From positions 5,952,001-6,016,000 of the forward strand of contig NC_092663.1 of the NCBI RefSeq assembly GCF_032118995.1: DNA of 64,000 nucleotides, in the 5' to 3' direction. The DNA comes from Asterias amurensis (Eukaryota; Echinodermata; Asteroidea; Forcipulatida; Asteriidae). The notes beneath the pieces were generated by a model that made no database searches, was not told the origin of the DNA, and saw only the letters and a list, made by a program, of their open reading frames with translations. This document shows, piece by piece, positions 2,090 to 49,475 of the stretch (its first letter is position 1; each line of letters begins with the position of its first letter). Position numbers and translations under genes: made by a program.

Positions 2090-2516
2090 GACGTGGTGTG
2101 CGCGCGTGCCCAGGGCGGGTAAACTCATCAGCAGTCATGCAATAAGGGGTTGGTGTTGGATATAGACCTTCATCACGGTGCAGCCATCTTTAATATCAAT
2201 TTTACCAATTACCAAACCGAGGCTGGACGAACTAAATAGTCTGGTTCCTATTTTCAAAAGGATTGTTAGCATTCATTATTGTTATTCGATTTGAGGAACA
2301 TGACCAAGATGGGGGCAGCAATAATGGACCTTTATCATAATATTATTATGATAAAGGTCCATTGTATTAAAAGTCGTTGAGAAATGTACTTCTCAAATAT
2401 TCGAGTTTTGCAAACCATAGACATACTGGAATAATACCTAGGTATTATTGTTTATAACTTTGGTCTAGACGCGTACTAGAATGTCTTCTGCACTGTGATG
2501 ACACAGAGTTTAATAA
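2090..2516. other. No gene; short perfect hairpin at 2321-2364
   Basis: The only structure seen is the hairpin aatggacctttatcataat ... attatgataaaggtccatt centred near 2343, with arms of about 20 bases. No gene is recognised. Confidence 0.55.
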
Positions 2517-2687
2517 GGGAATCAGTGTGTGTTGAATCGGTTTTCAAGTAGTGGTTTAATACAATCCCAACAAGGCCTGGTACTTGATAATATTACCGAG
2601 ACGAACAAGAACCATGCCTCGGCGGGTTTAAACCACTAGTTGAAAACCGATTCAACACACTTTGATTCCCATTCGTAAATACCTTTT
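2517..2687. mobile_element. Fold-back element, GGGAATAA family (S1), copy A
   Basis: The ends are GGGAATCA / TTGATTCCC. The right side continues into an ATTCGTAAATACCTTTT tail that is shared with copies B (8224-8406) and C (28749-28938). The arms pair through gtgtgttgaatcggttttc / gaaaaccgattcaacacac. The arm sequence is unrelated to the arms of copies B and C. Confidence 0.65.
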
Positions 2688-2786
2688 CGGTCAAAAAACA
2701 TCAACACTTTTGGTCAAAAAGTAAAATAAATGCAAAAATTATAATTGTTCAATGATTTCTTTCAACACAAGAACACCCCTCCAGCT

Positions 2787-3475
2787 TAGCCCTATATAGG
2801 ACTCTTTCTCTGTACACAGGAACAGAGTCCCAACTATTGAGGCCCGTTTCTGGGGCGGAACAATTTCACAGCTTCATAACTTAAATCTTACCTGCGACAA
2901 GCCACTAATTTCAACAGATTCACATTTCATGGCGGCATACATTTTTCTGCGGTGGGTTTTCATTCTCATATTTTCCTCACAAATCCGTCATTTTCGTGAA
3001 ATAATGCAGCTTCCAACATTAAAAAATTCCAGTTTCGATCGTTTTCTCACAGTGTTGTCTGTCGTGCGTACGCGTATACATTCGCGTGCAAGACGCATGA
3101 TGCAAGCTTAGACGCATGAATTCTTGGTCACCGTATCTTGACTGCACAGCGTTAACAACACAATTCAAATTTGCGCGTCGTGCGTCTTGCGTACACACGG
3201 CAGACTGTGAGAGTACGAACAAAAATGGGAATTCCTTAACGTTGGGAGCTGCATTATTTCATGAAAATGACGGATTTGTGAAGAATATATGACGATCAAA
3301 TCCCACCGCAGAAAAACATATGCTGCCATGGAATGTGAATCTGTTGAAATTGGTGCTTTCTTGCAGGTAAGATTTGAGTTATGAAGCTGTGAAAATTGTC
3401 CGCCCCAGAACCGTACCCTGATGTCCAGGACGTCACTGTAGTACAAAACGAAAGTGTAAGGCCGCCAGGGCTATA
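2787..3475. mobile_element. Fold-back element of family H with 10-bp target duplication, copy 1
   Basis: The element begins TAGCCCTATA and ends GGGCTATA. It is flanked by a perfect 10-base direct repeat, CCCTCCAGCT (2777-2786 and 3476-3485). The long arms pair from the ends through the blocks near 2930 and 3330. Duplications of 9-10 bp are typical of MULE and Foldback elements. Each arm contains a gccgccATG-like start followed 13 codons later by CAG/GTAAGA, a canonical splice donor. A second copy lies at 13266-13821. Confidence 0.75.
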
Positions 3476-3500
3476 CCCTCCAGCTATGAAATGGTAAGCT

Positions 3501-3830
3501 TTATAACACCCCTTGCAAGTATTCTGCCTGCTCATTGGTTTAGAGCGCGTCACATGACATGTCTTAGTTTTGCCAGACGACGGCTGTGTGATAGAGCGTC
3601 GGTTTGCCATGCGCTAGTCCAACAGGCTAGCACATGGCGTGCAGTACCCAGACGTCCGTTGCGTATACTGGGATGATAAATTAATAGTCTGTAACCACTT
3701 CGGATTGCGCGACACTACATGCAACACAGTAAGTAAAAGTGTTTGCAATCTGTATTCGCGTCGTCCGTGGATTGTAGCATTCAGGTCTGTAACTTAATAA
3801 TAACATTTAGAAATGTTTGGGGTGTTATAA
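3501..3830 (+). repeat. Repeat G, copy 1 (TTATAACACCCC termini)
   Basis: This is a 330-bp unit with terminal inverted repeats TTATAACACCCC / GGGGTGTTATAA. It is directly followed by a fold-back element of family D. The same G-D-G-D order is found at 34551-37557 in inverse orientation. No gene is seen inside. Confidence 0.65.
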
Positions 3831-3988
3831 AACAAATATTGACTGCTTTTACTCGTGCAATGGTTAAAAACTATGACTCCCTCGGTGATCCCCGGAGCGT
3901 TCTATTTTCCCGGAGCGTTCTATTTTCCGGAGATCACCTCGGGAGTCATAGTTTTAACCATAGCACTCGAAGCAGTCAATATTTGTAT
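3831..3988. mobile_element. Fold-back element, ATTGACTGC family (D), copy 1
   Basis: The outer ends are ATATTGACTGCTT / AGCAGTCAATATT. The arms pair through ggttaaaaactatgactccc and its complement and the centre is gc-rich (cggagcgttctattttcc). It lies between two G repeats. Confidence 0.7.
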
Positions 3989-3989
3989 A

Positions 3990-5462
3990 TTATAACACCC
4001 CTTGCAAGTATTCTGCCTGCTCATTGGTTTAGAGGGCGTCACATGACATGTCTTAGATTCAGTGGCGTAACCAAATGCTGCCGTAAAACGGAAAACTTTT
4101 ATTCCTTATCAGTAGGCCCTATGTGGACTATAACATGAAAAATGCGTGGAAACGCGCGCGCGATCGTATTGGCGGTAAATGTTTGTTGTGGTTTTGCGGT
4201 TACAGAGAGTGCAGGATGTGACAAAGTTCTGTTAAATACGTGGTGGTCTGAACGCAGACCAATAGCTCCGTAAACACAAAGTCAGATCATGGAGGTAGAA
4301 ATTTCTACCTCCATGGTCAGATGCACTACAGAGAAATTTACTACAGCACAACAATGGCCAGCGAAAAAGGTTGCTTAGACCATTTCTTCTCCTTTGAAGC
4401 AAGCGGTGCAATTGAGAGGTAGGCCTATTATTTTTAAATATCCGTTTCGTAACTAAAATGTGATTATTAAACACCCACACTTGTTACAATAAGGCCGAGT
4501 AAAAAAAGAAACATGTTTAGTGTCTGGGTTTCTCAAAAATAAGGAAGGAGGAGGGGCTTTTTATTTTTTATTTCAAGATGGTCGCCATGAATGTCAAATA
4601 TCAACTGGTTTTTTTTCTGCTGCTGAAATACACAAAACATTAATGAAACAGTTTGGTCAAGGCATTCAGACAAGACATTCAGATTTTTTTTTTTTTTTTG
4701 CTGAGATCATTTAAAATAACCCTTTTTCAAAAAAAAAAAGAAAAAAAAAATGTGCATAAAAAAACTTAAGAAAAAAAAAGAGGTGTCCTGTAAAAAGGAA
4801 GCGGGCGGGGACGCTAAACATTTCTATTTTTCTATTTTTACTTGGCCTAATATTATTATGTTTTGGGTATTTACACACCCACAAAGCCTAGTTGAGAATA
4901 CCGTGTACAACTCTAAATTGGTACTTGTTGACCACAGTTGGTAATTTAATCCTTTTATACAGTCAAAAAGATTTATCTTATACAAAATGACATGTTCTCT
5001 AAGATTTTGTTGTTTTCGCAATCTTTTGTTACATGCTGACTATAGACTGTTTTAGAACTGCATTGGTGTGTATCAACTATATATCAGTTAACATATTTAA
5101 TAATAATCTTGCACTTCTTTGGCCCCCCAAATTTAATCTTTGCCCCCACTTGCCCCACCAAATGAAAATGTCTAGTTACGCCACTGCTTAGTTTTGCCAG
5201 ACGACGGCCGTGTGATAGAGCGCCGGTTTGCCATGCGCTAGTCCGACAGACTAGCACATGGCGTGCAATACCCAGACGTCCTGTGCGTGTACGAGGATTA
5301 TAAATTAATAGTCTGTAACCACTGCGAATTGCACGACACTACATGCAACACAGTAAGTAAAAGTGTATGCAATCTGTATTCGCGTCGTCCGTGGATTGTA
5401 GCATTCAGGTCTGTAACTTAATAATAACAGTACAGTATTTAGAAATGTTTGGGGTGTAATAA
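3990..5462 (+). repeat. Repeat G, copy 2, split by a hAT element
   Basis: A second G unit starts with TATAACACCCCTTGCAAG, breaks off at 4059 inside the block acatgtcttag, and resumes at 5187 with the same block. It ends in ggggtgtaat just before the next D fold-back. The break is the insertion described at 4060-5186. Confidence 0.7.
4060..5186. mobile_element. Non-autonomous hAT element, 1.13 kb
   Basis: The termini are perfect inverted repeats CAGTGGCGTAAC / GTTACGCCACTG. They are flanked by an 8-base duplication, cttagatt (4052-4059) and cttagttt (5187-5194), with one difference. An 8-bp duplication and a CAGTGGCG terminus are diagnostic for hAT. A small hairpin sits at about 4288-4315 (atggaggtagaa/ttctacctccat). 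No transposase is recognised. Confidence 0.85.
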
Positions 5463-5463
5463 A

Positions 5464-5636
5464 ACAAATATTGACTGCTTTTACTCGTGCAATGGTTAAA
5501 AACTATGACTCCCTCGGTGATCCCCGTAGCGTTCTATTTTCCCTCGGCTTCGCCTCGGGAAAATAGAACGCTCCGGGGATCACCTCAGGAGTCATAGTTT
5601 TAACCATAGCACTCGAAGCAGTCAATACTTGTATAC
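5464..5636. mobile_element. Fold-back element, ATTGACTGC family (D), copy 2
   Basis: Same outer ends and same stem as the copy at 3831-3988. The centre folds on ccctcgg-cttcg-cctcggg. Confidence 0.7.
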
Positions 5637-5736
5637 TAGGCACTCCGCCGCCCTCGGGTAAACAACTCCTTATAAGGGAATGCTGTGCGCGTCGCGCGTA
5701 TCGCGTGATGTGGCACAACTTACTGTCCCGGCTCTC

Positions 5737-7620
5737 GACCAAATAATATGGTGGCCCTGAAGGGACACAGCCAGTCGTGAATATTTTTGTGACGTCGTAT
5801 ATTATTTATTCACGACAAGTCGGGAATATTTTGGCGACGTCGCGAATAATTATTTTCACGACTAGTCGCGAATAATTATTTTCACGACTAATCGCGGATA
5901 AAATAAACATCTGTTACACTTCAAGAAATCAAAGAGGATTCAATTATATTTCTCAATTAATGTTAATTGTTGAGAGCCATACAGAAAACTACTCTGATTG
6001 AAAGCAAAAAAACATTTGAACACATTTTTAGTAAAGTAGTTATTTTTGTTATCGAAGTTCGAAAAAACAGTGTCTGATTTCCATCAATATTCGGGGGTTT
6101 TCAAGGCTGAATTACTCCAAACCCAAATAATTCTGAATGCTAAAGGATTAATCTTTCAGTTAAACTTGGTAGGGGATTACGTGATGCGTTGCACCCTGCC
6201 GTGACGGAACGAACTCGCATTTCAAGTTGGAAATAACAACGCAAATTGCTCTAACATTTCATGTAAAAATTGTCAAATTTGTTGCTGAAATTGTCTACAC
6301 ATTATAATTAAACTTATCATTGGGTTGTTTGTAAAATTTACCTATTGTTGGTCCGACTACGCCGGGCCGGGGTTAAAAATTGATGTTTTCATTTCGTAAA
6401 AAATAGTTGTTTTAATGAGTGTGTGAGACGTCGCAATTTTAAAAGTTAATTTTTCTAGCGTTTATGTTTTCAAAACGGGTCGTAAAATTTATAGTGTCAA
6501 GGTCATCGAAAACTACATATTATTTTGGATAGGAAGGTCGTATGATCATGATTTTTATTTAATTTAAAATGTTGAGATTTGCTAGTTGGGATTATTATGA
6601 TATAAACTCAAAAATGAAATTTACTCGATATTCAACATTACGAAGGAGCGGGTGACATATAACGTTATGTTTTTCTGAAGAGTGAAAGTGCCAACGTTTA
6701 TTGCCTATAGCATAGGATGTTCCATATAGAATAGCTTACTCCTACTAAAGTACTAGTAAAACTATAACGTTAGGCCTAGGCCTACCGTTAGGGCCATACG
6801 TTAAAGGAACACGTTGCCTTGGATCGGTTTAGTTGGTCTTTGAAAAGCGTTTGTAACCGTTTGTTATAAAATGCATTTGGTTAGAAAGATGTTGTAAAAG
6901 TAGAATACAATGATCCACACAAACATGCCTTGAAATTTAACGGTTTTCCTTTTACCTCGTCGACTAACACGTTCGGCCAATTATGGGAGTCAAATTTTTG
7001 ACTCCCATAAATGGCAGACCGTGTTAGTTCGCAAAGTAAAAGGAAAACCACGCAATTTCGGGGCAAATTTGTGTGGATCATTGTATTCTACTTTTAAAAC
7101 ATCTTTCCAATCATATGCATTTTATAACGGTTACAAACGCTTTTTATAGACCAACTCGTCCGGTCCAAGGCAACGTGTTCCTATAACGTTAGTATTGTTT
7201 AAACAACCCACCATCGATTTGCATCAGTCGGAATTCTCCTCCGGATCCATCATCGTACGGGAAAGCTTTTACTTAGTCTTTCTAAGCCGTCAACGTGAAT
7301 ACAGTAATTACACACTCAAGCTACTGAAAAAAAATCGCGACTAGTCGCGAATTTATTCGCAACTAGTCGCAGAAATATTCACGACGTCATGAAAATGTTC
7401 GCGACTAGTCGTTAAAAAAATCGCGACTAGTCGTGAAAAAATTCGCGACGTCGCCAAAATATTCGCGACTTGTCGCGAATAAATTCAAGACGTCGCAAAA
7501 ATATTCACGACGTTGCAAAAATATTCGCGACTTGTCGTGAATAAATTCACGACGTCGCAAAAATATTCACGACGTCGCAAAATATTCACGACTGGCTGTG
7601 TCCCTTCAGGGCCACCATAC
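5737..7620. mobile_element. 1.9-kb TIR element with subterminal GTCGCGAA arrays
   Basis: The ends are TATGGTGGCCCTGAAGGG / CCCTTCAGGGCCACCATA, continuing as inverted repeats into acacagccagtcgtgaatat. Both subterminal regions (5770-5900 and 7330-7600) are runs of short direct repeats built on cgcgactagtcgcgaa and gacgtcgcaaaaatattc, about 10 units on the right and 4 on the left. The centre contains family I copy 2 (6801-7185) and no recognised gene. The architecture resembles sea urchin TU-type fold-back elements, whose outer domains are also tandem repeats. The target duplication is not clear. Confidence 0.7.
6801..7185. mobile_element. TTAA-flanked fold-back miniature element (family I), copy 2
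   Basis: It starts TTAAAGGAACACGTTGCCTT and ends caaggcaacgtgttcctat, so the right TTAA is degraded. The central palindrome on gactcccataaatggc matches copy 1. It is nested in the element at 5737-7620. Confidence 0.75.
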
Positions 7621-8136
7621 TAATAGGAATGAAGAAACTTACTGGTCATAAACAAAGGTTTATACACACCCACGTGACGCGCTCTCCACCAAAAGGAATA
7701 GCGAAACTGTCTGAGGTGTTTATGAATGAATATTTACCGACGGGCATGCAGCGCTTCCACACTCCCCATCAAGTCGGGACCTCATTAATTGCGTGCTGGG
7801 GAGTTTCCCTTTTGCTGTTAGACCATGGGATGATCGCTAGAATTTTTCAAAACCGTAGTCCCCACTTTTGGACCAGGCAATTTTTGTATGTAGGTATGAA
7901 ATAAAATACAGAACATCCATTTCTTGCTGTTGCTTGGCGAAAATCCTGCACCGTATCCCGAAAGAAACAATTACGGCGACAAATAGTGATCTAAAAATCC
8001 TCGGAAGCCTGCGATGTGGGTGACGTCATTCGAAGCATTATCGTGTTTCGTTCCCACACTGTACCGTTATAACATACAGTGTAATTCTTTAAACCCCTGA
8101 ACAAAAGGATGCCTATTTACAGGCTCGTTCGACAAC
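7621..8136. other. No gene recognised
   Basis: A 91-codon open frame runs across 7629-7904, but it has no family resemblance and no clear exon signals. I treat the stretch as unassigned DNA. Confidence 0.45.
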
Positions 8137-8222
8137 ATTATAAGTTATCACACAAGCGTGAGTGGAAATACGAACAAAATAGTGTGTCTGCGTCCCATAA
8201 CTCGGCCGCGCGTGTGATAATT
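8137..8222. repeat. Short fold-back, family E (TAAGTTATCACACAAGCG)
   Basis: The left end is ttataagttatcacacaagcg and the right end is cgcgcgtgtgataatta, with the inner block tctgcgtcccataa. Related copies are at 16387-16528 and 26365-26478. The right end abuts fold-back S1 copy B. Confidence 0.5.
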
Positions 8223-8223
8223 A

Positions 8224-8406
8224 GGGAATAAACAGTGCGAGTACCCGGTCTTCACTGCGTGGTAATGACCGGGTTGGTGGCTGGCGCTGTTAACGGACCG
8301 AGCCGGAGACGAGGTCCGTTAACAGCGCCAGCCACCAACCAAGGTCATTACCACGCAGTGAAGACCGGGTACGAACACTGTTATTCCCATTAATAAATAC
8401 CTTTTT
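8224..8406. mobile_element. Fold-back element, GGGAATAA family (S1), copy B
   Basis: The ends are GGGAATAAAC / GTTATTCCC with an ATTAATAAATACCTTTTT tail. The arms pair through gtacccggtcttcactgcg, continue through gcgctgttaacgga, and close at about 8305. The stem shares nothing obvious with copies A or C. Confidence 0.7.
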
Positions 8407-8572
8407 TAGCGAATTAAATGGCTAAAATTGTCCACATTTTGTGACTTTTCTCTCGGCGGTACTTCCAGACATATTCAGGGGCCATATTTGAGCTTTTGAT
8501 GGTTCCCATCTCTTTCGTGCGTTAATCACATTACTGATCTTTGAGACCAGTGACTCTTTTAAATAATGATCT

Positions 8573-8945
8573 GGGGCCAATTTCATAGAGCTGCTTAAGC
8601 AAAAAAATTGCTTAAGCACGAAAATAGCTCGCTTATTTTTCACATGTTACTGGCCAAAATGTCATGCCATATACATTGCTTATGACTAGTATTTAGCTGT
8701 TGTTTACTTAGCATAACAATTGAGTGGAGTCTTGGCTGGTAATCTGATTTTACTCAGCAATGAATTTTTTGCTTAAGCAAAAATTTTTGCCCAATTTCAT
8801 AGCTCTGCTTAACGGCCGATTTTTTGCTTAACGGGCGCGCTTAAGCAAATTTTCATTTCATAGCCTTGCTTAAGCAAAAATATTTGCTTAACGGGATAAG
8901 CAAGGAAAAAGGAGCCTTAACTACCGCATTTTTTTGCTTAAGCAA
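8573..8945. repeat. Cluster of GCTTAAGC palindromes upstream of the Harbinger transposase
   Basis: Three direct copies of a (g)cccaatttcatag-type block occur, at 8575, 8789 and about 8848. Each is followed by gcttaagc or gcttaac, and about nine GCTTAAGC or GCTTAAC words fall in 370 bases directly 5' of the transposase start. GGGCC-type ends followed by palindromes suit a Harbinger terminus. No matching inverted copy was found on the far side of the Myb-like gene, so the right boundary is unknown. Confidence 0.5.
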
Positions 8946-8959
8946 AAATTTCAGTCAAA

Positions 8960-11874
8960 ATGGCTGCCTTACTGCGGAGGAGACGTCACGTTGAAGAAAA
9001 TCAGCGAAATTATCCCATTCAAAGACAAAGGCGGGTTTTTCGAGACAGACAAAACCCCCTCGAGCTGTTTACTCCCGTTCAAATTTGGGCGCGGTACAGA
9101 TTTCGCCCGGCAACTATTGTAGGACTTGCCCAAGCATTGTCGGCTGAATTGGAACATCCAACTGACAACAACCACGCACTGCCACCCCTACTTCAAGTGT
9201 GCCTCGCATTGCGGTACCTGTCCTCGGGGACTTTTGCCATTGTTGTTGGCGACACATGCCCCGTGGTTAGCCCCCCGACGGCTTGGCGAGCCATAGATCG
9301 CACCGTCAGAGCCATCAATCGCGTTCTTGGGATTCGAATAAAGTTCCCAGATCCCCAAGATCAAATCTCCACACAGGCACTACAACAGGGCTTCTTCAAA
9401 ATTGCCGGTAAGATAATAATTGGTGGGTTTCTTGAATTATTATTAATTGGTAAAATGAGGGTGTAGGAAAGTTAATGTCCGCATCTCTTGGCAATATTAT
9501 TTTAAGTTCGGCATGAGTGACGGACAGATAGTAAATTCTCTGAGAAAAACCATGCCAACACTTTAAAACGTCAGCACTTCATCCAATTATTATTAATATT
9601 AGCCAACAATAAACAATTGACATAATCACACACAGCTTGGAGAACCATTGGCATCGATTTGCTGATATAAAAAATAATTTATAACAATTATTAGTTTTTA
9701 TTTACAATAATTACAAGCATATTCAGATATATTTTTGTAAGATTTGTTTTGAATAAATAACCAATAGGGCCTATACATGTATACAAATACTTAATGGCAT
9801 CCATATAATAATTTAACCACGAGTTGAGCTTTACAATTTATTGCCAAATGAGAAGTATACATTGTAGTCGCTAGCATTTAGGTTAACACAATAGGGACAC
9901 CTTTCGATTATGACTTAAAAATGTTTTTATACTGTAGTGGGTTTGAACATTATTTTCAAAATTGTTCAATTTTATTGATAGGATTTCCCAATGTCATTGG
10001 AGCCGTGGACTGCACCCATGTTCGTGTTGAACCCCCTTCCGAGTTGAGAAATGAGTTCGTCAACAGAAAGGGATACACATCCCTCAACTGCCAGGTGATT
10101 TAACAATTGTAAAATATATGCAAGCATGACAAATATTGCTATTGCTATTAAAAACAAATAATTCCAAACTACTTTTGTCTCACTTTGGATTTGTTGGTGT
10201 TTTTCATTTCTGTAGATGGTATGTGACCACCGCAAGCGGTTCACAAACGTAGTAGTCAAATTCCCCGGTGCTGCCCATGATAGCAGAGTTTGGCGGGAAA
10301 GTTCTCTGGGCGTGGCAATGGAAGCTGGTAGATGTTTGTTTTTTCTTGGATACAAAGTCGAAATAAAATTTGCAAATTTAACAAATGAATTGATAAATTG
10401 ATATCTAGTCAAATGAAACAGAGGAAATGGTTTACATCCCTATTTTTGATATATTTTTTTAGGCAGATGGCCACATTGTCTAATCTTGGGAGATTCTGGC
10501 TATTACCAGAGGGTTTTTCTCATGGCTCCCTACCCAAACCCAGCAACAGAGCAAGAAACGGACTACAATACTGTGCATGCCGTAACAAGGTACAGCATTA
10601 AACCCAACAATCCTCATTCAATCAAACTTCCACTCGAGTGTTTGTCGATATCTGCTGGCGAGAGTTTTTACATCAAGTGATACAGATTTACTTGGATTAG
10701 GCATACCACCCATGGAGCAGGCATCTCACCATAATCCAACAATCTTGATGTTGAGTTCCCATTTTCATCATTTGTAGAAGTAAGTTCACAAAGGCATCCC
10801 TAAAGAAAAAAAAATAAGTTTCTAGTTTTGCGTTACAACCTGTGGTTAAAAAACAAAACACCTTTATGGTAAAAATTCAGTGCACCAAATTCCATTTTTG
10901 TGTATAAATTCCAAATTTAGGGAACATCCAGACAAACTCTTGAAACTGATAAAAAATATTGACAATTCTAATGAGACTTGTGTTTCGTTTTTCGGTGCCC
11001 TAAGTGAAAAGACAGAAAAACCTGTGCAAACATGCGTTTCCTTATACACAAATGAAGCACCAGCTATAATTCATACAATTACATGTATTTACAGATCACT
11101 CATTGAGCAGACCTTCGGCATAACTAAAAGAAGGTTTGCCTTGATGAAAACAGGCACCAGGGTTCGCTCAATGGGCAAGGCCGCCAGTGAAATCCTTGCA
11201 TGCTGTATACTCCACAACTATGGGATAGATGAAGGTAAGTTCTTGACCGATAGTGCGTTTATCTTATAGGGTGGGTAAAACATTGGTAATTGGGTGAAAC
11301 ATTGGTAATTGTCAAAGACTAGTATCTACACTTGATGTGACCCAACATGTACATGAAATAACAAACCTGTGAAAGTTTAAGCTAAATCGGTCTTTAGAGT
11401 CATGAGAAAGAGTGAACACAAAAATGTGGTTTTACTTTTTTTTCAAGACATACAATTTGGTTTTGCAGGATAAATACAGTTGTTTTATTATTTCCTTAAA
11501 ACTTGCATTTTCAGCAGAAAATTTTCCACCATGTCCTTCTTCATACCATGTAAGTTATGTGCAAATCTGTGAACTTTTCAACTTTACCAATGTCGTACAC
11601 TAGGTCCCGAATGTGTAAATTTCTCAATGAGCTTTCCTTACGATGATGCCTTGGAGTGAACTGGTATTAACATGTGTAACTTGAAAGCCACTTTTGTAAT
11701 TTGTTTGAAGGTGACCTCATGCCTGAGGAGGCTAACAATGAGAGGGATGACCCAGAGGGTATTCTGCGTCTGGATTACAGAGGAGCAGGGACTGACACAG
11801 CACTTGGGCAGGCAATGAGAGATCGACTAGCTACATCCATCTCCAGACATCGCAGACAACTAAATGCACAGTGA
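8960..11874 (+). CDS. PIF/Harbinger (HARBI1-like) transposase, six exons, open
   Basis: The exons are 8960-9407, 9982-10094, 10216-10327, 10463-10589, 11095-11234 and 11711-11874. All junctions are GT-AG, the phases match, and the join gives 367 codons with no stop, close to the roughly 350 residues of vertebrate HARBI1. An N-terminal helical part (NPLE... PTAWRAI) leads to the DDE nuclease: D159 in AVDCTH, HDSRVW, D235 in LGDSGYY, and E271 in IEQTFG, 35 residues after the second D. CILHN follows near the end. The start ATG has context caaaATGG. The family cuts and pastes DNA in the nucleus with a Myb-like partner, and a candidate partner gene converges from 13893-16854. Either an autonomous element or a domesticated copy would fit. 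The call to family is firm; current activity is inference. Confidence 0.88.
11278..11470. repeat. Diverged half of a GGACAC-type miniature element in transposase intron 5
   Basis: The blocks attggtaattgtcaaagactag, aaataacaaacctgtgaaa and aatcggtc occur in the order seen in the intact copies. The ends are lost. Confidence 0.45.
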
Positions 11875-18227: not shown

Positions 18228-18838
18228 ATCACCCACGGTTAAAATAGAGCATGACGCAACTTGTCAGGGTCGGGGGTCATCTCCAGGGAAACAATGTCTG
18301 CACGTACTACTAGTTGCGATAACGTAACCCTCCTCCCAACGGCCGCCAGGCCGGAGGGTTACCAGATTATTTTGATCGTCAATTAATTACAATCTGGTTC
18401 AACACGTATAATTTCGACAGCTAGTCACCAGATTTTGCCCCATTTTTACCACTTTTAAAAATCATGAAACTTAATCCTCAATCAATGTCTAATGAACACT
18501 CACAAGTCAAAACACCTTTGACAAAATATTTTTGAAGAAAAAGGACAAAAACTTACCAGATCCCGGAGCGAATTCCCAGGTTTATATATTTTGAACTTGT
18601 CGCATCGCTTTGCAAACGCTTTATTTAGGCACAACGCCTGCCTACATTGGCAATAACTGGCATAAAAACTCCTGGATCTACGGCCGACAGGACTGACATT
18701 ACGAGTCCGTACCGAACATCAACGATACTGTCCGAATGTTAACGACAACACGTTCGGAACATTTCGGATAACTTCGAAAGAGGAAGAATTCCTCCTTTTT
18801 GGTCACGTGCATGATTGTGGGTGATACCGGACCCTGCC
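18228..18838. repeat. Possible small TIR element with GGTATCACCCAC ends
   Basis: ggtatcacccac at the left is mirrored by gtgggtgatacc at 18827-18838. An inner gttgcgataacgtaaccc string at about 18310 recurs inside the fold-back at 27931-28139. No target duplication was verified. Confidence 0.3.
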
Positions 18839-27930: not shown

Positions 27931-28139
27931 GTAATATTGACTGCTTAATATTCGGGGCACAGTTGAAATTATAGGCCCTCGGTGGTGTCAAAACCATGAC
28001 TATGCCCTTAGTTGCGATAACGTAACCCGTTATCGCAACTACTATGCACTCAGCCTCGCTTCGGGCATGGTCATGGTTTTGACATCACCTTGGGCCTATA
28101 ATTTCAACTGTGCCCCTCATAGCAGTCAATATTTCCATA
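27931..28139. mobile_element. Fold-back element, ATTGACTGC ends (D) with a different stem
   Basis: The outer ends taatattgactgct / agcagtcaatatt are those of the D family. The stem, however, is ggcacagttgaaattata / tataatttcaactgtgcc, unrelated to the other four D copies. A small palindrome, agttgcgataacg / cgttatcgcaact, interrupts the left arm near 28010-28045. Confidence 0.7.
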
Positions 28140-28748
28140 CTATATCCGAAATTCAGATTTTTACATTTTCTAAATAGCGGCGGTCTCATAGTGTGCAACG
28201 CAAATTTCGAGATTTGGACTAGGAGAAAATCGAATAAAAGTTATAGGACCAAAGCAAACTTCTACTTAAAAATGCGCTTTTCACACGAATGGCGTCTCAA
28301 AGCGCGCCTTCCAACATTATCACCCTTGCAGGCCCTGGTCACTGGGCCTTATTTCATTCCTTAAAACCAACCATCTCAGCTCACTGGGGAGTACATGTAC
28401 AGCTAATCGGCTATTCATAAATAGACAGTTTCATTATTCCTATTGGCGTAGAGCGCGTCGTGGGGTATTTAAAACTTTGATAATGACCAGTGTTTACAAC
28501 CGGATGTGAGCGGATATTCCGCGCTAGTCTTGATGCGAGACGTTTCTTGTTACGGGCGATGCAGGCGCTGTCGGTGAGTTGGCATGGCCGCGCTGTGTGA
28601 AAGTTGACCATGTGTGTGAAAGGGAAACCAGCGTGTTGCACCAAGACTATACGCGCATGCGCACGGACGGAACCGGAAACTGTCGGAAATAGGCATGCAA
28701 CACACTCGTATGGACGTCGTACATGTACATGTAACTCGCCTTTTAACC
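28140..28748. other. No gene recognised
   Basis: No exon pair, repeat array or terminal repeat seen. Confidence 0.4.
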
Positions 28749-28938
28749 AAAAAGGTATTTTTGAATGGGAATAAAGGTGTGTCTACTAGTTTTTTCACGG
28801 CCGTTTAAAACCTTGCAGGGTCGAATTGTCGTTTGATAAAGGCCCAGAATCGGCTCGGGCCTTTATCACACGGCAAATCAACCCTGCATGTTTTAAACGG
28901 CCGTGAAAGAACTAGTAGATACGCTTTTATTCCCTAAT
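28749..28938. mobile_element. Fold-back element, GGGAATAA family (S1), copy C
   Basis: It starts aaaaaggtatttttgaatGGGAATAA and ends TTATTCCCtaatt, the reverse orientation of copies A and B. The arms pair ctactagttttttcacggcc with ggccgtgaaagaactagtag, then continue through gggcc-type sequence to about 28848. Confidence 0.7.
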
Positions 28939-30170
28939 TCAATAACAAGAACCATTTCTGCCCTCACATGTACCCATTTACACATGGAACCAGTAGTCAA
29001 GTGTCTTGCTCAGGGACACAAGTATCACGACCAGGACTCGAGCAGAAGCACCAGCTTGAGTTCGGTGCTTTAATCCGCTCGACACCTGGAAAGAACGTTT
29101 CGAAACGAGCATCGTTTCAAAATTATACTAGCAAAATATTGGAACGAACAATAATTTAGAACCATGTTCGCTCGTTATATTTGGTGTTCAGCACGAAGTC
29201 TGAATGCCGTCAAAGAGACTTTTTTCTTCAACTTGTAAAATTGCAGGGAATTCTGTCCGCCGACGCCGGAGATTCCTTTTCAACTTTGCACTATTCATTA
29301 AATGGTGAAATAAATTACTCATATCCGAGCCCTAATAATACGCGGAAAGGGGGAGTGGGAAGCAAGGCATCCTCAAACGCGACATAGCACGGTTCACAAA
29401 CAAACCATAGGGGGTGCTCTGAACTGGGTATAAAAGAGAACATGACAAAAAAGGTGTGTGATAAAAATAATACTGGAGAAAATGGGCCCACAACTCCGCT
29501 GAAGAAAAAACAATACATGTCAAAATATACCACTGTTATTCAATAGAGACGTACTATAGTCATTTTGGTTGGGGAGCGAGGAAAGTAGCAAAACACACAC
29601 AAACAATCCCAAGGCTGGGACATCATTTTATGCACCAGACAAATCTATGTTTGGATATTCTTATGAATATATTTTATTTGTGCATAGATTCATGGTCCAC
29701 GTTTTGTATTGTAACTATCAAACTCGGTTCCATTGTGTGCTGTCTGCTACCTTCCATTCATAAATTTTCTTGTGAATATTATTTTATTTTTGTAAAGACT
29801 TATAGTTTGATGAATTAAGGCGAAAACAAACTTTGATCCTTTTGAATTGAATTCATAATTTATTATCTAATTCTTCTCACGTAGCTATCTATAGGGTCAA
29901 AACGCGAGGCCATGGTAACAATATTTTGCACGTACATCATATAGTTTTAGTTGGACGCAGTTTGCTAACAACCTTTTTAAATAAAATCAATAAATTAATC
30001 AGTTTGCTTGTTACATAAAATAAAATTGAAGAGGATGCCTGAGTTGACTTATACAATCAGAGTTGGACTAGGTGCGGATAACGTGCTCTCATATAGTGCT
30101 TGTGTGCAAGATTTGATACACGCACGTTGCAACGCGTGTTCAGGCTGTGTATAAGTCAACGTCTTAGTTT
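28939..30170. other. No gene recognised
   Basis: Unassigned DNA. Open frames at 29315-29533 and 29569-29763 show no family resemblance. Confidence 0.4.
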
Positions 30171-32732: not shown

Positions 32733-33563
32733 TTAAAGGCACCTGGAAATAGATTTTTTGTTTCGTTCAAACATTAGAGTATATGTTCCTGAACAATAAA
32801 ATAATTGTTTGAGTAATTGTTTTTGACGATTTATATGTTTAACAAATTAAATAAAGTTGTGTGGGGGGTGACTCTGCCTACCCCTTTTGTGACGTCAATC
32901 GAGGAAGACTTTGCCTCGATCGAACATCGAACACACGTACGTGCAAGTACATTCAAGTCCTGGACGTGAGTTTGTACGTTTGAAAAAGTTGTTTTCTTGC
33001 ATTTTTCCGGCAATGTCAACCAGGTGTATTGCTGCTGGATGCAGCAAAACAACTAAAGATGGTATCAGTTTGCCAAGTTGTCCGGTCCGACGTCTTTTCC
33101 AGCGCTGTGCGGCAAACACTTCGAGCCGTCGTGCTTCGAGAATCCGGAATACACAACACATTTTGACATGAAGAGAAAAGTTCTTTTCTAAAACATGACG
33201 CCATCCCAATAATTTTTCCAGCTAGTGGGGAAGTCGAAGAAGGTACCTGAAAGACGTAACGAACCTAAAGGAGCATTTGCCTAACGTGAAAAAAATCAGG
33301 TATTGTTTCAACTTTGAGGGCATGTTTTTAGCTTGCGCCAAGCGTCACTATGCTATGTTGGCACTGCATGCGATTCATCGCGCCTTGATTGACGTCACGA
33401 ACAGCGCCCTCTCGGGTCGGGCTTTTTTTCCAATTTGTAAATAACATGGTAACTAATTGATGTAAACCCTAGTTAGTTGTTTATTCATATTCCACTCATC
33501 AAAACACATATTTTAGTGACAAAAGCTTTATTTTGACAAAATACCACTTCCAGGTGACTTTAA
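32733..33563 (+). mobile_element. Kolobok-type element remnant with a broken THAP domain, copy 1
   Basis: TTAA flanks both ends and the inverted termini are AAAGGCACCTGGAAAT / acttCCAGGTGACTTT. From 33014 it encodes MSTRCIAAGCSKTTKDGISL, the start of a THAP zinc finger. In another frame downstream it encodes CGKHFEPSCFENPEYTTHF, the second half, so one or more frameshifts split the domain. TTAA targets plus THAP define Kolobok. The catalytic part is absent: this is an internally deleted copy. Others lie at 42460-43027 and 50416-51015. Confidence 0.8.
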
Positions 33564-34267: not shown

Positions 34268-37200
34268 ATGGACAACCGTAACGTTGTAGTAAATGAGTTG
34301 ATAGGCCAGCCTGAGATCAAAAAAAGGAAAATGATGGATTCGCAACCCACGCATCAAGTCAAGCAAGAATCAAATCTCCAAGAAGAACAAGGCCAATCAA
34401 CATTTATACTACTGCCAGCGTTCAAAGGTATGTGGTACCTTTATAATCGCCTGTTTTTGAAAACATGTCTAACGAGTTAACCAGTTACATACTAAATTCA
34501 CGGTTATTGGGTGCCACATCTCAGTAAAAATTTAACTAATAATGTGCATATACAAATATTGTCTGCTTCGAGAGCTATGGTTAAAACTACGACTCCCGAG
34601 GTGATCCCCGGAGCGTTGAAAATGGAACGTTTCGGGGATCACCGAGGGAGTCGTAGTTTAACCATAGCACAAGTTAAAGCAGTCAATATTGTTTAACACA
34701 CCAACAGACTATTTATCATCTTCGTACACGTAACGTTCGTACGCGCATTTCAGATATACAGATGCACAACTGATTGGGTTTGAGTTGGTTAAAAAGACGT
34801 CTGGGCACTGCACATTGTGTAATAGTCGTCGGACTATCACACGGCAAACGACGCACTCACACGGCAAACGACGCACTATCACACGGCAAACGACGCGCTA
34901 TCACAAGGCAAACGATGCACTATCACACGGCCGCTGTCTAGTAAATTAAGACATGTCATGTGACGCGCTCTAAACCAATGAAAAGGCAGAATATTTGTAA
35001 TGGGTGTTATAATATACAAGTATTGACTGCTCCGAGTGCTATGGTTAAAACAATGACTCCTGAGGTGATCCCCGGGAGCGTTCTATTTTCCCGAGGGGGA
35101 TCACCGAGGGAGTCATAGTTTTAACCATTACACGAGTAAAAGCAGTCATCATTTGTTTTATAACACCCCAAACATTTCTAAATACTGTACTATTATTATT
35201 AACTTACAGACCTGAATGCTACAATCCACGTATGGGGCGCCGTTTGTCCATTAGTTGTTTGAAACTTTTCAGGCATGTTTTTACCATGGTTTACAGCAAT
35301 TAGATGTAAATCATAGAAACTGTTGCCAAATCCTGTTATGGTTTACATACCAGTAAAGTATTTGTTGTGTATAAGTTTATGGTTTACAAACCATGAACAT
35401 ACAAAAAACATTTACAAATCATGGTTCATAAACCAAGAAAATTTACGCATCTTAGAAGCATGGTTTATAAACCATAAAAAATGAAGCATCAAATTCATGG
35501 TTTACAAATCATGGTTTACAAACCATGAAAATTGAGACATCTTAAAAACATGGTTTATAAACCATGAAAATTGAAGAGTAAAAATCGTGGTTTACAAATC
35601 ATGGTTTTATAAACCATAACAAATGAACCATAAAATCATGGTTTGTGACAATGGTTTATAAACCATGAAAATCGAGACTTCTTAAAAAACATGGTTTATA
35701 AACCATGAAAATCGAGACTTCTTAATAAACATGGTTTATAAACAATGAAAATTTACACATCTCAAAAACGTTGTTTGTAAACCATAAAAAAAAGTGCACT
35801 TACAAATCATGGTTTACAAACCATAAAAATGTGCACTCAGAAATCATGGTTTACAAACCATAAAAAATGTGCACTCAGAAATCATGGTTTATAAACCATA
35901 AAAACGTGCACTCACAAATCATGGTTTACAAACCATAAAAAACTCCACTCACAAATCATGGTTTAACAAACCATAAAAGCGTGCACTCACAAATCATGGT
36001 TTACAAACCATAAAAGTGTGCACTCACAAATCATGGTTTATACCATAAAAATTGTGCACTCAGAAATCATGGTTTACAAGCCATAAAAAATTTGCACTCA
36101 GAAATCATGGTTTACAAACCATAAAAAATGTGCATTTAGAAATCATGGTTTACAAACCATAAAAAATGTGCACTCAGAAATCATAGTTTACAAACCACAA
36201 AAACCTATGTGATCGTCTCAATTAAACCTCCTTCCCAATTCTGATCGGTTCCCATTTCCCCCATGCCACGTGCGAGCCAGCAATGATGCAATGCACCATC
36301 ACGCTGTGATCAATGCACCTCGTGTGTTATGCTGCCAGCCATAGCAAGCATTCATAGAGCTATTATTGCAACAGCATTACACAACAGGTGCCTTGATCAC
36401 AGCTTGACACACATGGTGCATTGCATCATTGCTGGCTCGCACGTGGCATGGGGGAAATGGGAACCGATCAGAATTGGGAAGGAGGTTTAATTGAGACGAT
36501 CATATAGGTTTGTATGGTTTGTAAACCATGATTTCTGAGTGCACATTTTTTATGGTTTGTAAACCATGATTTCTGAGTGCACGTTTTCATGGTTTATAAA
36601 CCATGATTTCTGAGTGCACATTTTTTATGGTTTGTAAACCATGATTTGTGAGTGCACATTTTTTATGGTTTATAAACCATGATTTGTGAGTGCACGTTTT
36701 TATGGTTTATAAACCATGATTTCTGAGTGCACACTTTTATGGTTTGTAAACCATGATGTGTAAGTGCTCTTTTTTTTATGGTTTACAAACAACGTTTTTG
36801 AGATGTGTAAATTTTCATGGTTTATAAACCATGTTTATTAAGAAGTCTCGATTTTCATGGTTTATAAACCATTGTCACAAACCATGATTTTATGGTTCAT
36901 TTGTTATGGTTTATAAACCATGATTTGTAAACCACGATTTTTATTCTTCAATTTTCATGGTTTATAAACCATGATTTTTAGATGTCTCAATTTTCATGGT
37001 TTGTAAACCATGATTTGTAAACCATGAATTTGATGCTTCATTGTTTATGGTTTATAAACCATGTTTTTAAGATGCGTAAATTTTCTTGGTTTATGAACCA
37101 TGATTTGTAAATGTTTTTTGTATGTTCATGGTTTGTAAACCATAAACTTATACACAACAAATACTTTACTGGTATGTAAACCATAACAGGATTTGGCAAC

Positions 37201-40200
37201 AGTTTCTGTGGTTTACATCTAATTGCTGTAAACCATGGTAAAAACATGCCTTAAAAGTGTCAAACAATTAATGGACAAACGGCGCCCCATATCCACGGAC
37301 GACGCGAATACAGATTGCAAACACTTTTACTGTGCTGCATGTAGTGTCGTGCAATCCGAAATGGTTACAGACTATTAATTTATCATCCTCGTACACGCAA
37401 CGGACATCTGGGTACTGCACGCCGTGTGCTAGTCTTCGGACTAGCTTATGGCAAACCGACGCACTATCACACGGCCGTCGTCTAGCAAAACTAAGACATG
37501 TCATGTGACGCGCTCTAAACCAATGAGCAGGCAGAATACTTGCAAGGGGTGTTATAATACAAAATATGCATTCATCATATCATATTGCCGGCTGGTTTAG
37601 TTTACCTATGTTCATATCTTTCAAAAGCCAATGAATGATATTAATTAGACAAACAGTAGGAGGGGTGACTTTGTACAGTGAAAAATGCCTTTACAACATT
37701 ATCTATGGTGTTGGCTGGTAAAGTTTACCTATCATTCAAAAACAAATTGACTGTCTTATAATGGTCAGACTGTAGGAGGGTTTACTGTGAACTGTTAAGA
37801 TGCATTTACCACTTGACATCATATTTCAGGCTTGCATAGTGTATAACCACTTTAAACCAGACTGAATGATAGTAGGAATAGAAGGTACTGGGTAAAATGC
37901 ATTCACCATATGATACCATATTGCAGGCTTTGATTACCATTCCATCAGGTATTGATCTTCCAGACCGGTTTCCTGTCTGGAGCTGTTAGTATAAAGTTAT
38001 CGAAGCTGTTTGAATTTTTTGAGCCATCTCCCTGACTAGGGTGGATTATCCCAGCTGAAGCTTTGTCTATTGTTTGGTTCCACCAGTAGAGGAGCCATGG
38101 TTGTGGACTTTGTAACAAAGGCCCAAAAGGGAACAGCTTAAAGCTGGGCCAATACACCCTGTTGCTCACCTGGTTTCGAGACACAGGGTGGGATATGGGG
38201 GCGTTTGTTTCTACCTGGGAAGAAAAGATCTAGTAACGCCTTATCTATCATTAAAAATCACAGTGAATGACATTGAATGGTCAAGCATTAGGAGGGTTGA
38301 CTGTGTAACTTAACCTTAACCTTCAAATGCATATTGTTCTTCTTTCTATTTATCTTTAACAGATGAGTATAAACCTTCCACTAGTCACCAGAGTGATGCA
38401 ACATCTCTACAAAGCAACGACGGGCAGGCCGTCCTCTGCAAACTGTGCAATCACCAATACATCGACCCAAGATTTCTTGACTGCCTTCATAGCTTCTGTC
38501 TGAAGTGCCTTGACAAGCCTGAGGTTTACAAGACCAGCTCGGGAAAACAACTACGTTGCCCAGATTGTCACCAGGATACCGATGTACCACTGATGGGAGT
38601 GTCAGGTCTTTGCAAAGACTTCATTGCCAATAAATTAGTCGAAGAGCAAGGAAAACAGCTTTTGCCCCAGGGTTATCCAACTCTTTGCCAAGCTTGCCAA
38701 GAAAAGAGAGTTGCCGTCGCTCTCTGCAAGAACTGTGAAGAGTTTGTTTGCTTCACTTGCAAGATGGCACATCAGAGATTCAACAAGATGAAGTCGCATA
38801 TATTCCACAGTTTGGAAGATCTATCATCTGGCAAGGTGCCCCTGCATGCACAAATGGAGAAGTGCAGACATCACGCGGGGCATGACCTTTGCATGTTCTG
38901 CAATACCTGTCAAGAGAAGATATGTTTGAAGTGTGTGGCCTTCAAACACTGTAAGCCCAATCACGACTATGTTGAAATAAAAACAGCAGCAGCATCCTGC
39001 CGCTCTGATATCCTAAAGGTCTTAACACCACTTGAGCGAAATGCTAAGAAGCTCCAAGCTGCAAAGACCTTAGCGGAACAAACCAAAAAGAAGTTGGAAT
39101 CCAATGTGGCGGAAGTGCTTGAAAAGATGGCAAAGAAGAAGAAGTCAGAGCTAGGAAAGCTCACCAAAAGACTTAAGATCCTCAAGGACAAGGCAGAGTC
39201 TGTGGCAAAAGAGAGGAGTGAAGTACTAGACAAGTGCTGGGTTGCGAACACGAATGCAACTAAAGCAGAATTTATCTTGAAAAGGGTAAGAAGCATGATC
39301 AGTGACGAAGACTGCCATGACCTCATCACTCTGAAGGTACAAATCTTGAAGAGCCTGAATTGTATTTCCAAGAAGAAAGCAGAGAGTGTCCCTCTTGATC
39401 TAACATTCATTGACTTTACAGAAAGTTTATCTAGTGGTAACAACCTTGGGGAATTGGTCTTTGAAGAATTATGGGGCCTTAAGAATGAATTTGGAAACAA
39501 CTCCGTCCTTGACATTAATTTTGAATGGGTGAAGGCTGCTGTTGGCCGTTTGAACGGTGACATGGTAGTTTTGGATTGTCTTACCAACACAGTGGTGACA
39601 TTAACTTCAAAAGGTGTTAACAAGGGTACCATTAAAAGCCAGGACCCTAGGGGAATTTTCATCAGCCCTGTCGACATCGCCTTGTCCAGCTCGGAGCACA
39701 GTCTGGTTTTGGACTCGGCAATAAAGGTGTTCGACAAGGATGGGATTTTCATTTCCAGACTGGTGTTATCAGAGGGTGTATCATCGGCCAAATGCATGGA
39801 TGCAGGGGGCGGGAAGATAGCCATAGGTGCCCAGGAGACGATACTGCTCTTTGACGAAGACGGATCAAACCCAATCTCCATACCAGCCAAGCTGATAGAC
39901 AAACACATCGCTATCTGCAACAAAACACAGTCCCTGATCTACACCAACTACGAGAAGTCCCGACTGGTATCCGTTGACTTTTCGGGAAAAGAAAATTTTA
40001 ATGTTTCAACAGTTGTCAATAAAAAGTCTGTGAAGCCCACTGGTGTCTGCATTGATAAGACTGGTGAGATTTACATCGCAGTGCACACTGGGTTGCAGCG
40101 GGGTACCGGTGAGATCCACCATTATAGTGCAGAGGGAAGCTATGTTGGCTTTGTGACAAAAAACTTATACAATCCCGTTGGAATTTCCTTAAGCCCAATT

Positions 40201-42459: not shown

Positions 42460-43027
42460 TTAAAGTCACCTGGAAATATAATTTGTTTTCTTTCAAACAT
42501 AAGAGTATATGCTTACGAACAATAAAACAATTTTTGTAGTAATTGTTTGTCACGATTTATATGTTTAAAAAATTTATAAAGTTGTTTGGGGGGGCTGACT
42601 CCGCCTACCCCTTTTGTGAGGTCAATCGAGGCAGACTTTGCCTGCAATGCGTATAGTAAACACACGTGCAAAGTACATGTACGTTCAAGTCGTGAGTTGG
42701 TACGTTTCAAAAAGTGTTTTTCTGCATTCAGCAGCAATACACCTGGTCAGCATTGCCGGGAAAAAACTTCTTGTTTTGAAACGTACAAACTCACGACTTG
42801 GTCCGTACATGTACTTTGCAATTGTGTTTACTCTACGCATTACAGGCAAAGTCTGCCTCGATTGACGTCACGAACAGCGCCCTCTCGGGTCGGGGTCTAC
42901 TCTTAAATTTGTAAATAACATAAGAACTGATTTTTTTAAAACCTTAGTTAACTGTTTATTCACATACCACTCATCAAAACTCATCATTTTCTCTAAACTA
43001 GCCTCTTCTTGCAATTGTGATAGACTT
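42460..43027 (+). mobile_element. Kolobok-type remnant, copy 2, with internal inverted duplication
   Basis: It begins TTAAAGTCACCTGGAAATAT and keeps the gactccgcctacccc and gacgtcacgaacagcgccct blocks. The THAP part is replaced by an inverted duplication: ggcagactttgcctg... acatgtacgttcaagtcgtgag (42630-42705) is mirrored at about 42790-42865. The right terminus is missing where family J copy 4 begins. Confidence 0.7.
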
Positions 43028-45676: not shown

Positions 45677-45846
45677 AAGGAAGGTTCGCCTCGTCAGTTT
45701 TGTACCTGTACTTACACAAGTTTTTTGTTTGTTTCAGGGAATCACACACAGTTGTTGAAGTAGATAAAGGAGCTGAATAGAATAAAAGGCAGTGGACACT
45801 ATTGATTGTTCACTTAAAGTAGGGTTTCAATTTTATAAGTGACCAA

Positions 45847-47430
45847 TTACTGACTGCAATGCTGAATATCATCACCGATGAACGTAATCTTATTTGAATG
45901 TGAACAGTAGACCTGAATATCTTCACCGATGAACGTAAACTTATTTGAATGTGAACAGCAGTCCTGAATATCTTCACCGATGAACGTAAACTTATTTGAA
46001 TGTGAACAGCAGTCCTGAATATCATCACAGATGAACGTAATCTTATTTGAATGTGAACAGTAGACCTGAATATCATTACAGATGAACGTAATCTTATTTG
46101 AATGTGAACAGTAGACCTGAATATCATTACAGATGAACGTAATCTTATTTGAATGTGAACAGTAGACCTGAATATCATCAAAGATCAACGTAATCTTCTT
46201 TGAACGTGAACAGTAGACCTGAATATCATTACAGATGAACGTAATCTTATTTGAATGTGAACAGCAGACCTGAATATCATTACAGATGAACGTAATCTTA
46301 TTTGAATGCGAACAGCAGACCTGAATATCATCACAGATGAACGTTATCTTATTCGAATGTGAGCAGTAGACCTGAATATCATCACAGATGAACGTAATCT
46401 TATTTGAATGTGAACAGTAGACCTGAATATCATCACAGATGAACGTAATCTTATTTGAATGTGAACAGTAGACCTGAATATTATCACAGATGAACGTAAT
46501 CTTATTTGAATGTGAACAGTAGACCTGAATATCATTACAGGTGAACGTAATCTTATTTGAATGCGAACAGCAGACCTGAATATCATCACAGATCAACGTA
46601 ATCTTCTTATTTGAACGTGAACAGCAGACCTGAATATCATCCCAGATGAACGTAATCTCAATTGAATGTGAACAGTAGACCTGAATATTATCACAGAAGA
46701 ACGTAATCTTATTTGAATGGGAACAGCAGATCTGAATATCATCACAGATGAACGTAAACTTATTTGAATGCGAACAGCAGACCTGAATATCATCACAGAT
46801 GAACGTAATCTTATTTGAATGTGAACAGCAGTCCTGAATATCATCACAGATGAACGTAATCTCAATTGAATGTGAACAGTAGACCTGCATATCATCACAG
46901 ATGAACGTAATCTCAATTGAATGCAAACAGCAGACCTGAATATCATCACAGATGAACGTAATCTTATTTGAATGTGAACAGCAGTCCTGAATATCATCAC
47001 AGATGAACGTAAACTTATTTGAATGCGAACAGCAGACCTGAATATCATCACAGATGAACGTAAACTTATTTGAGTGTGAACAGCAGACCTGAATATCATC
47101 ACAGATGAACGTAATCTTATTTGAATGTGAACAGCAGACCTGAATATCATTACAGGTGAACGTAATCTTATTTGAATGCGAACAGCAGACCTGAATATCA
47201 TCACAGATGAACGTTATCTTATTTGAATGTGAGCAGTAGACCTGAATATCATCACAGATGCACGTAATCTTATTTGAATGTGAACAGTAGACCTGAATAT
47301 CATCACAGATGAACGTAATCTTATTTGAATGTGAACAGTAGACCTGAATATTATCACAGATCAACGTAATCTTATTTGAATGTGAACAGTAGACCTGAAT
47401 ATCATCACAGATCAACGTAATCTTCTTATT
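45847..47430 (-). repeat. 51-bp minisatellite, about 31 units, open in two frames on the minus strand
   Basis: The unit on the given strand is ctgaatatcatcacagatga acgtaatctt atttgaatgt gaacagcaga c with few variants. Because 51 is 17 codons, a minus-strand frame stays open for 549 codons (47496-45847) as repeats of ICDDIQVYCSHSNKITF. A second frame is open for up to 203 codons as MIFRSAVHIQIRLRSSV. Units resemble each other in a longer pattern: the variant acgttatctt...gtgagcag at 46341 recurs at 47211, 870 bases away (17 units plus one extra codon). No protein family is recognised, and the open frames are expected from the period alone. Confidence 0.85.
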
Positions 47431-48936: not shown

Positions 48937-49475
48937 ATTTGAACGTGAACAGCAGACCTGAATATCATCACAGATGAACGTAATCTCAATTGAATGTGAA
49001 CAGTAGACCTGAATATTATCACAGAAGAACGTAATCTTATTTGAATGGGAACAGCAGATCTGAATATCATCACAGATGAACGTAAACTTATTTGAATGCG
49101 AACAGCAGACCTGAATATCATCACAGATGAACGCAATCTTATTTGAATGTGAACAGCAGTCCTGAATATCATCACAGATGAACGTAATCTCAATTGAATG
49201 TGAACAGTAGACCTGAATATCATCACAGATGAACGTAATCTCAATTGAATGCAAACAGCAGACCTGAATATCATCACAGATGAACGTAATCTTATTTGAA
49301 TGTGAACAGCAGTCCTGAATATCATCACAGATGAACGTAATCTTATTTCAATGTGAACAGCAGACCTGAATATCATCACAGATGAACGTAATCTTATTTG
49401 AATGTGAAATCACAGATGAACGTAATCTTATTTGAATGTGAACAGTAGACCTAAATATCATCAGAGATCAACCTT
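48937..49475 (-). repeat. 51-bp minisatellite, continuation of the outer array
   Basis: The order of variants at 48940-49320 (ctcaattg, tattatcacagaag, gaatgggaacagcagatctg) is the same as at 46604-46995. This block therefore continues the outer array in register after the inserted element. Confidence 0.85.

Follow-up and report, generated by a model that had tools for sequence, protein, structure and literature searches.

The window analyzed here, a 64,000-nt stretch of the Asterias amurensis genome (NC_092663.1, positions 5,952,001 to 6,016,000), contains three long hairpins (E1, E2, and E3; Table 1) that share their base and apex while their stems differ. We think it fairly probable that each is the required 3′ terminal hairpin of a Helitron2/Helentron-like transposon family, and that template switching rewrites each of its two arms from the other. 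The three had been described in an earlier note, made from the sequence of the window, as fold-backs with constant ends, and these are real: GGGAATMA N125-155 TKATTCCC has three matches in the window vs. none in 100 shuffles, and AAGGTATTTNNNAATGGGAATMA, with up to 3 mismatches allowed, also has three, all of them exact (shuffled mean 0.02). In their common orientation they read AAGGTATTT-nnn-AAT, GGGAATMA, stem, apex, stem, TKATTCCC, TWATT. A chance origin of hairpins and ends is ruled out by shuffle tests of these end patterns and of the stem agreement described below.

Paired Changes in the Stems

The earlier note saw no resemblance among the hairpin arms, and proposed that the whole stem is replaced while the ends persist. 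The first claim does not hold. Measured ungapped from the common end (gapped identities are gap-inflated, and were set aside), stem positions 15-47 agree at 17 of 33 bases for E1/E2, 19 of 33 for E1/E3, and 15 of 33 for E2/E3, with shuffled means of 8.4-8.9; the summed agreement, 51 of 99, was reached in none of 20,000 dinucleotide shuffles (mean 25.9). An offset of zero is the best of 17 for two of the stem pairs and joint best for E2/E3, whose resemblance continues to the apex (P = 0.003 for the left arm, 0.001 for the right). The stems are homologous in register, and where they differ the changes are largely paired, which argues against replacement of the whole stem; only the inner half of E1, discussed below, could be a replacement.

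Among 46 comparable outer-stem columns, 25 (E1/E2), 23 (E1/E3), and 23 (E2/E3) are unchanged in both arms. Double changes that still pair number 13, 14, and 16, respectively, where 2.5-3.0 would be expected under independence; one-arm changes number 5, 8, and 5, and columns in which both arms changed and pairing was lost 3, 1, and 2. As a control, sliding one arm by 1-3 columns left 0-3 paired cases. (The low ungapped agreement between E2's own arms, 15 of 47, results from a single extra base in its right arm, for which this analysis corrects.)

The same pattern is seen between stem classes defined over the whole genome (see below). Class consensus hairpins are 160-170 nt long, near-perfect in classes a-d and less so in e (3 copies), with similar apices; the base (GGGAATMA) and apex are conserved while the stems diverge, so that the earlier observation of persistent ends and a much more changeable stem stands. 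Pairs of a-d consensuses, compared over 73-76 columns, have 37-45 columns unchanged, 20-31 paired double changes, 4-9 one-arm changes, and 2-4 double changes without pairing. Within classes the proportions are reversed: 41 one-arm vs. 2 paired changes in class b (17 copies), and 87 vs. 9 in class a (24 copies), with 8 of these 9 in a single odd copy (L111).

The a and d stems also diverge faster than the rest of the element. These two classes are identical at 322 of 362 body positions (89%), vs. 52 of 77 in the left stem and 46 of 74 in the right (62-68%); the difference between left stem (25 of 77 changed) and body (40 of 362) is significant by Fisher's test (P = 1e-5), although the ratio is rough, as the class d consensus comes from 4-5 copies and stem sites are not independent.

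Some copies carry the same version of a short block on both arms. In 11 of the 18 class b copies readable on both sides, the left arm has GTTCG and the right arm GCGAG, the usual arrangement for this class; three have the same block on both arms (GTTCG in two, GCGAG in one), and four are other variants. Twelve of 30 class a copies could be read on both sides: six carry T and ATCG in the left arm, and G and AGAG in the right one; five are variants; and E1 alone has the left version on both arms.

The Family in the Genome

The genome searched was the window's own (491.5 Mb in 23 contigs, with the window on contig 16). It contains 1278 matches to the exact end pattern, none to the reversed control, and 1325 to the 5′ end pattern. 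Outside this genome, the exact pattern was found in neither viral_contigs nor genome_contigs; a looser version matched two viral contigs, without a matching right end in the stretches read, and the two-end pattern none.

Stem classes were assigned among 121 copies, comprising 119 loci (of which L060 is E3) plus E1 and E2. This is not a random sample: every copy has the exact end pattern or is a window copy, most were drawn from the rarer GGGAATAA subset (with 60 of 70 further listed places included), and class c was enriched through a stem search. At least five stem classes exist, as the earlier note had anticipated for a genome search with the ends: a (33 copies, including E1), b (37, including E2), c (20, including E3), d (18), and e (4, a relative of c, assigned manually from copies first left unassigned). 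Several of the nine copies left unassigned resemble shortened b hairpins.

Class-specific patterns, counted as matches rather than as hairpins confirmed copy by copy, were found genome-wide at 1047 places for a class a 24-mer, 126 for b, 15 for d, 365 for c and e jointly, and 509 for the e core. On whether one shared stem accounts for the family, the evidence is therefore mixed: class a dominates, yet other stems (the e core, b, and d) are common as well. A one-base variant of the repeat, GGCATTTATGAAT, precedes the hairpin in 25 of 38 readable class e core rows.

Structure of the Element

The long copies aligned (15 of class a, 4 of d, 6 of c, and 5 of b) share a 5′ end, ATTCATAAATACCT, that matches, in reverse complement, the repeat immediately preceding the hairpin. 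The constant outer side of the fold-backs is therefore the 3′ copy of an asymmetric inverted repeat (ATTCATAAATACCT at the 5′ end, AGGTATTTATGAAT inside the 3′ end), and the hairpin is the 3′ end. Class b, with the 5′ end ATTAATAAATACCT, deviates at the same base in its 5′ and 3′ repeats. The complete order is a 5′ repeat (ATTMATAAATACCT), a class-specific body, the inverted repeat (AGGTATTTATKAAT), the terminal hairpin of ~165 nt, and TWATT. Target-site preference, raised in the earlier note as a possible origin of the shared outer side, is ruled out, this side being the element's own subterminal repeat; among the outer parts only TWATT, which most of 46 copies have directly after the hairpin, may be target.

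Common sequence extends upstream of the hairpin for ~390 bp in classes a and d, ~420 bp in c, and ~555 bp in b, with less in many copies. Among 46 copies whose 3′ end is complete, 31 also have a recognizable 5′ end; 30 of these are 489-720 bp long and one 280 bp. Classes a and c are identical at 82 of their first 86 bases, while the rest of their bodies cannot be aligned as one piece. By the stricter test for ends, 26 of 61 loci have both, and no target-site duplication was found in these copies (76 vs. 77.8 in shuffled pairings, P = 0.62). One copy (L004) has two paralogous empty sites (L079 and L089), with about three fewer bases by an ambiguous alignment; the TATT after its hairpin falls within the L079 target.

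An A is found seven bases before ATTCATAAATACCT, separated from it by six bases that vary. This holds for all but 7 of about 100 matches listed for a pattern that excludes G, and for 32 of 34 of another set of copies. The A may mark the actual 5′ boundary, or else a coupling sequence.

The asymmetric inverted repeat, 3′ hairpin, and lack of target-site duplication fit a non-coding, high-copy, non-autonomous Helitron2/Helentron-like element with the hairpin as its 3′ end. Five matches to the Helitron Rep domain (Helitron_like_N) were found in the genome (E < 1e-30, in stop-free frames of 673-3394 aa; Table 1), and are possible autonomous partners. A canonical Helitron (Helitron1, with 5′ TC, 3′ CTRR, and a short hairpin 10-12 nt before the end) was considered and rejected, the ends of the aligned copies of this family being ATTCAT... 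and ...ATTCCC-TWATT.

Table 1. Copies of the hairpin element in the window, and Rep-domain matches in the genome.
Feature	Position	Strand	Remarks
E1 3′ terminal hairpin, stem class a	2517..2670	-	right arm bears left-arm block version
E1 3′ copy of asymmetric inverted repeat (AAGGTATTTACGAAT)	2671..2685	-	
E1 class a body, 3′ part	2671..2786	-	blastn, class a consensus vs. window
E1 further class a body pieces	3476-3498, 5640-5742, 7639-7728	-	other sequence between; same blastn
E1 probable 5′ end piece	7639..7728	-	consensus positions 3-92, 97.8% identical
E2 3′ terminal hairpin, stem class b	8224..8388	-	
E2 3′ copy of asymmetric inverted repeat (AAGGTATTTATTAAT)	8389..8403	-	
E2 3′ part of class b element	8218..8573	-	consensus positions 367-720, 97.8% identical
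E3 3′ terminal hairpin, stem class c	28767..28934	+	
E3 3′ copy of asymmetric inverted repeat (AAGGTATTTTTGAAT)	28752..28766	+	
E3 nearly complete class c element, both ends	28412..28945	+	28412-28735 + 28737-28945, small internal gap
Rep domain, possible autonomous partner	C10:9074012-9074608		
Rep domain, possible autonomous partner	C10:14805046-14805636		
Rep domain, possible autonomous partner	C5:13683714-13684310		
Rep domain, possible autonomous partner	C10:9252420-9253016		
Rep domain, possible autonomous partner	C18:3492463-3493053		

Of the three window copies, E3 is nearly complete. A blastn search of the window with the class consensus placed no 5′ part beside the 3′ part of E2. The pieces matching the class a consensus at E1 span 2512 to 7728; the gaps between them can be read as nested insertions, and from their order and strand, 7639-7728 and 2512-2786 are probably parts of one E1 insertion.

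Proposed Mechanism and Alternatives

Several steps would account for these patterns. The hairpin would end rolling-circle transposition, and for this reason its shape would be kept. Template switching or gap-repair copying would carry a change from one arm into the other, and the stems could therefore drift without loss of pairing. Immobile copies would decay one arm at a time. The bat Helitron Helraiser, reportedly a canonical Helitron with a short hairpin unlike that of the present family, is said to use its hairpin as a transposition terminator. Of the mechanisms offered in the earlier note, template switching is the one best supported here; for capture of flanking DNA or of a palindrome, no donor was found within the limits of the search.

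Several observations weigh against this proposal. The inner half of the E1 stem aligns with neither E2 nor E3 (P = 0.16-0.57), and is an exception that could be a replacement. Changes should be clustered, since template switching should cluster them, and runs of change are fewer than chance for E1/E2 alone (P = 0.009 and 0.035), not for E1/E3 or E2/E3 (P = 0.57-0.98). Transversions make up 99 of 159 paired changes (a sum over class pairs that are not independent), but likewise 30 of 40 body differences, so their share does not tell the routes apart. The copies with the same block on both arms are few, and could be old variants instead. Class d is based on 4-5 copies, in a sample that is not random and with stem sites that are not independent. 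The 3′ repeat lies ~165-170 nt inside the end, compared with 20-40 bp in Fusarium Helitron2 (PMC5148889), and the family ends are not linked to any autonomous element.

Selection by itself might produce paired changes, if the hairpin were needed as single-stranded DNA or RNA and one-arm substitutions were later compensated, with no copying between arms. The conservation of hairpin shape, base, and apex across all class consensuses is in keeping with this, as is a small excess of G-U pairs on the common strand (9 vs. 2 on the complement, in E1-E3), in the direction expected of selection on RNA. Constraint, however, should not speed the stem beyond the body, yet the a/d stems diverge faster; one-arm intermediates are rare between class consensuses (4-9 vs. 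20-31 paired), and whole blocks occur on both arms. We regard this explanation as unlikely. The difference in rate might instead arise by 3′ end swapping, if class d were a class a body joined by recombination to the hairpin of an older lineage, giving stem and body different ages. The elements are indeed mosaic, as the shared first bases and otherwise unalignable bodies of a and c indicate, but the a/d stems are the most similar among the six class pairs, the a and d bodies stay closely similar as far as the base of the hairpin (no differences among the 18 positions of the final block), and the paired arm changes are left unexplained; we regard swapping as somewhat less likely still.

Ordinary cut-and-paste hairpin miniature inverted-repeat transposable elements (MITEs), for example of a Harbinger-like gene adjoining E2, would also be short, non-coding, and present in many copies, and the window does contain a DDE-transposase-like frame (10880-11266; DDE_Tnp_4, E = 1.3e-4, 22.1 bits, under the 24.8 cut-off). 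The lack of target-site duplication already disfavors them, the inverted repeats are not both at the very ends, and no GGGAATAA end was found past the Harbinger-like gene within the window, making this origin very improbable. Even less credence can be given to capture of whole new palindromes from elsewhere. One repeat in the window did gain a hairpin by inverted copying of its own left end (the F-type repeat described below), and the inner half of E1 is unlike those of E2 and E3; but most of the length of the class stems can be aligned in register, which largely refutes capture for the outer stem, and no donor was found, either by blastn of each stem against the window at E ≤ 0.05 (which returned the stems' own arms and two 14-nt E3 matches, E = 0.026) or among the genome candidates scored (40 of 470 for the E2 stem, 40 of 388 for E3). 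The genome matches, not each of which was examined, are largely adjacent plus/minus pairs, as expected of other hairpin copies.

Comparison with Known Systems

Helitron2/Helentron and the related non-autonomous DINE/HINE elements have asymmetric terminal inverted repeats, a 3′ hairpin after the inner repeat, and no target-site duplication (PMC5148889); the present family is like them in repeat asymmetry, hairpin, lack of duplication, and abundance of non-coding copies. Helitron2 inserts at T-rich sites, TT or TTTT before T or C, and has a further hairpin at its 5′ end (PMC5148889). The family apex contains sequence resembling GCCTTCGGC, which is complementary to the GCC GAA GGC hairpin of FoHeli1 (PMC5148889), although this is a short likeness only. 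Unlike those of Helitron2/Helentron (PMC5148889), the 3′ hairpin here is not short, at ~165 nt, and its stems diverge between classes with paired changes. Helraiser (PMC4778049) is also among the closest known systems.

Galileo, a Foldback-like element of the P superfamily, is similar in that its inverted-repeat arms exchange sequence, and internal DNA has been recruited into both arms, giving rise to new subfamilies (PMC3573991, PMC4168063). It differs in its long terminal repeats, its P-type transposase, and its duplications of 7-8 bp, none of which are found in the present family. Template switching between arms is known to make multi-base paired stem changes and homogenized arms (PMC8794818, PMC8604942), but these examples come from RNA genes and yeast coding DNA, not from transposon ends. 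Among the titles and abstract openings searched, which exclude most subscription papers, none was found that describes hairpin evolution of this kind.

Other Hairpin Repeats in the Window

Other hairpin families in the window changed mostly in one arm: 2 paired vs. 27 one-arm changes in family C, 1 vs. 19 in family D, and 0-1 vs. 3-8 per pair among four copies of family B. A further B copy (27933-28133; family ends AATATTGACTGCT) behaves like the E hairpins, with 11-13 paired vs. 4-6 one-arm changes against the other four (3819-4001, 5451-5632, 34555-34690, and 35019-35153). A 20-base piece near the B hairpin apex recurs at 18311-18330.

The F-type repeat at 42460-42990 is the one copy to have gained a hairpin, as compared with its relatives (32733-33514 and 50416-51014). 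The left end of the relatives reappears, inverted, as the right arm of this copy (129 of 153 aligned bases, vs. 32830-33450), while its outer right end retains the family sequence (60 of 65); the two ends of the relative itself have only 17 of 19 bases in common. This anatomy matches that of a Galileo case explained by copying a terminal repeat and its neighbor into the other repeat (PMC3573991). Inverted copying thus does operate in this genome, but the E stems do not differ in this way. A relative has a weak THAP-domain match (E = 0.012, under the cut-off).

Four further structures were noted. A palindrome at 63430-63611 has 89-base arms with two mismatches and a 4-base loop, and no relative in the window at E ≤ 0.05. 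At 59141-59309 is a 169-base hairpin of repeated TCCTAACTTAGGAC-like units with GGTGGATTTCACAAA ends. Arrays of a short palindromic unit (TGGTTTATAAACCATG) at 35231-37291 form a large inverted repeat, with 377-base arms that are 97% complementary, and 51-base tandem repeats at 45709-49379, open in more than one frame, include an inverted duplicate of 285 bases (99% complementary).

Implications

It is conceivable, if speculative, that the terminal hairpin is a self-rewriting signal: with one arm templating the other at the time of replication, the stem would change several-fold faster than the rest of the element while pairing was kept, and new stem classes may use different transposases or escape silencing by small RNAs. 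Compensatory change in a stem is usually taken as proof of selection on structure. This family can be used to test copying between arms instead, because decaying copies, with one-arm changes, and diverged lineages, with paired changes, coexist in one genome; it would show how a Helitron2-like 3′ signal diverges while its shape stays the same.
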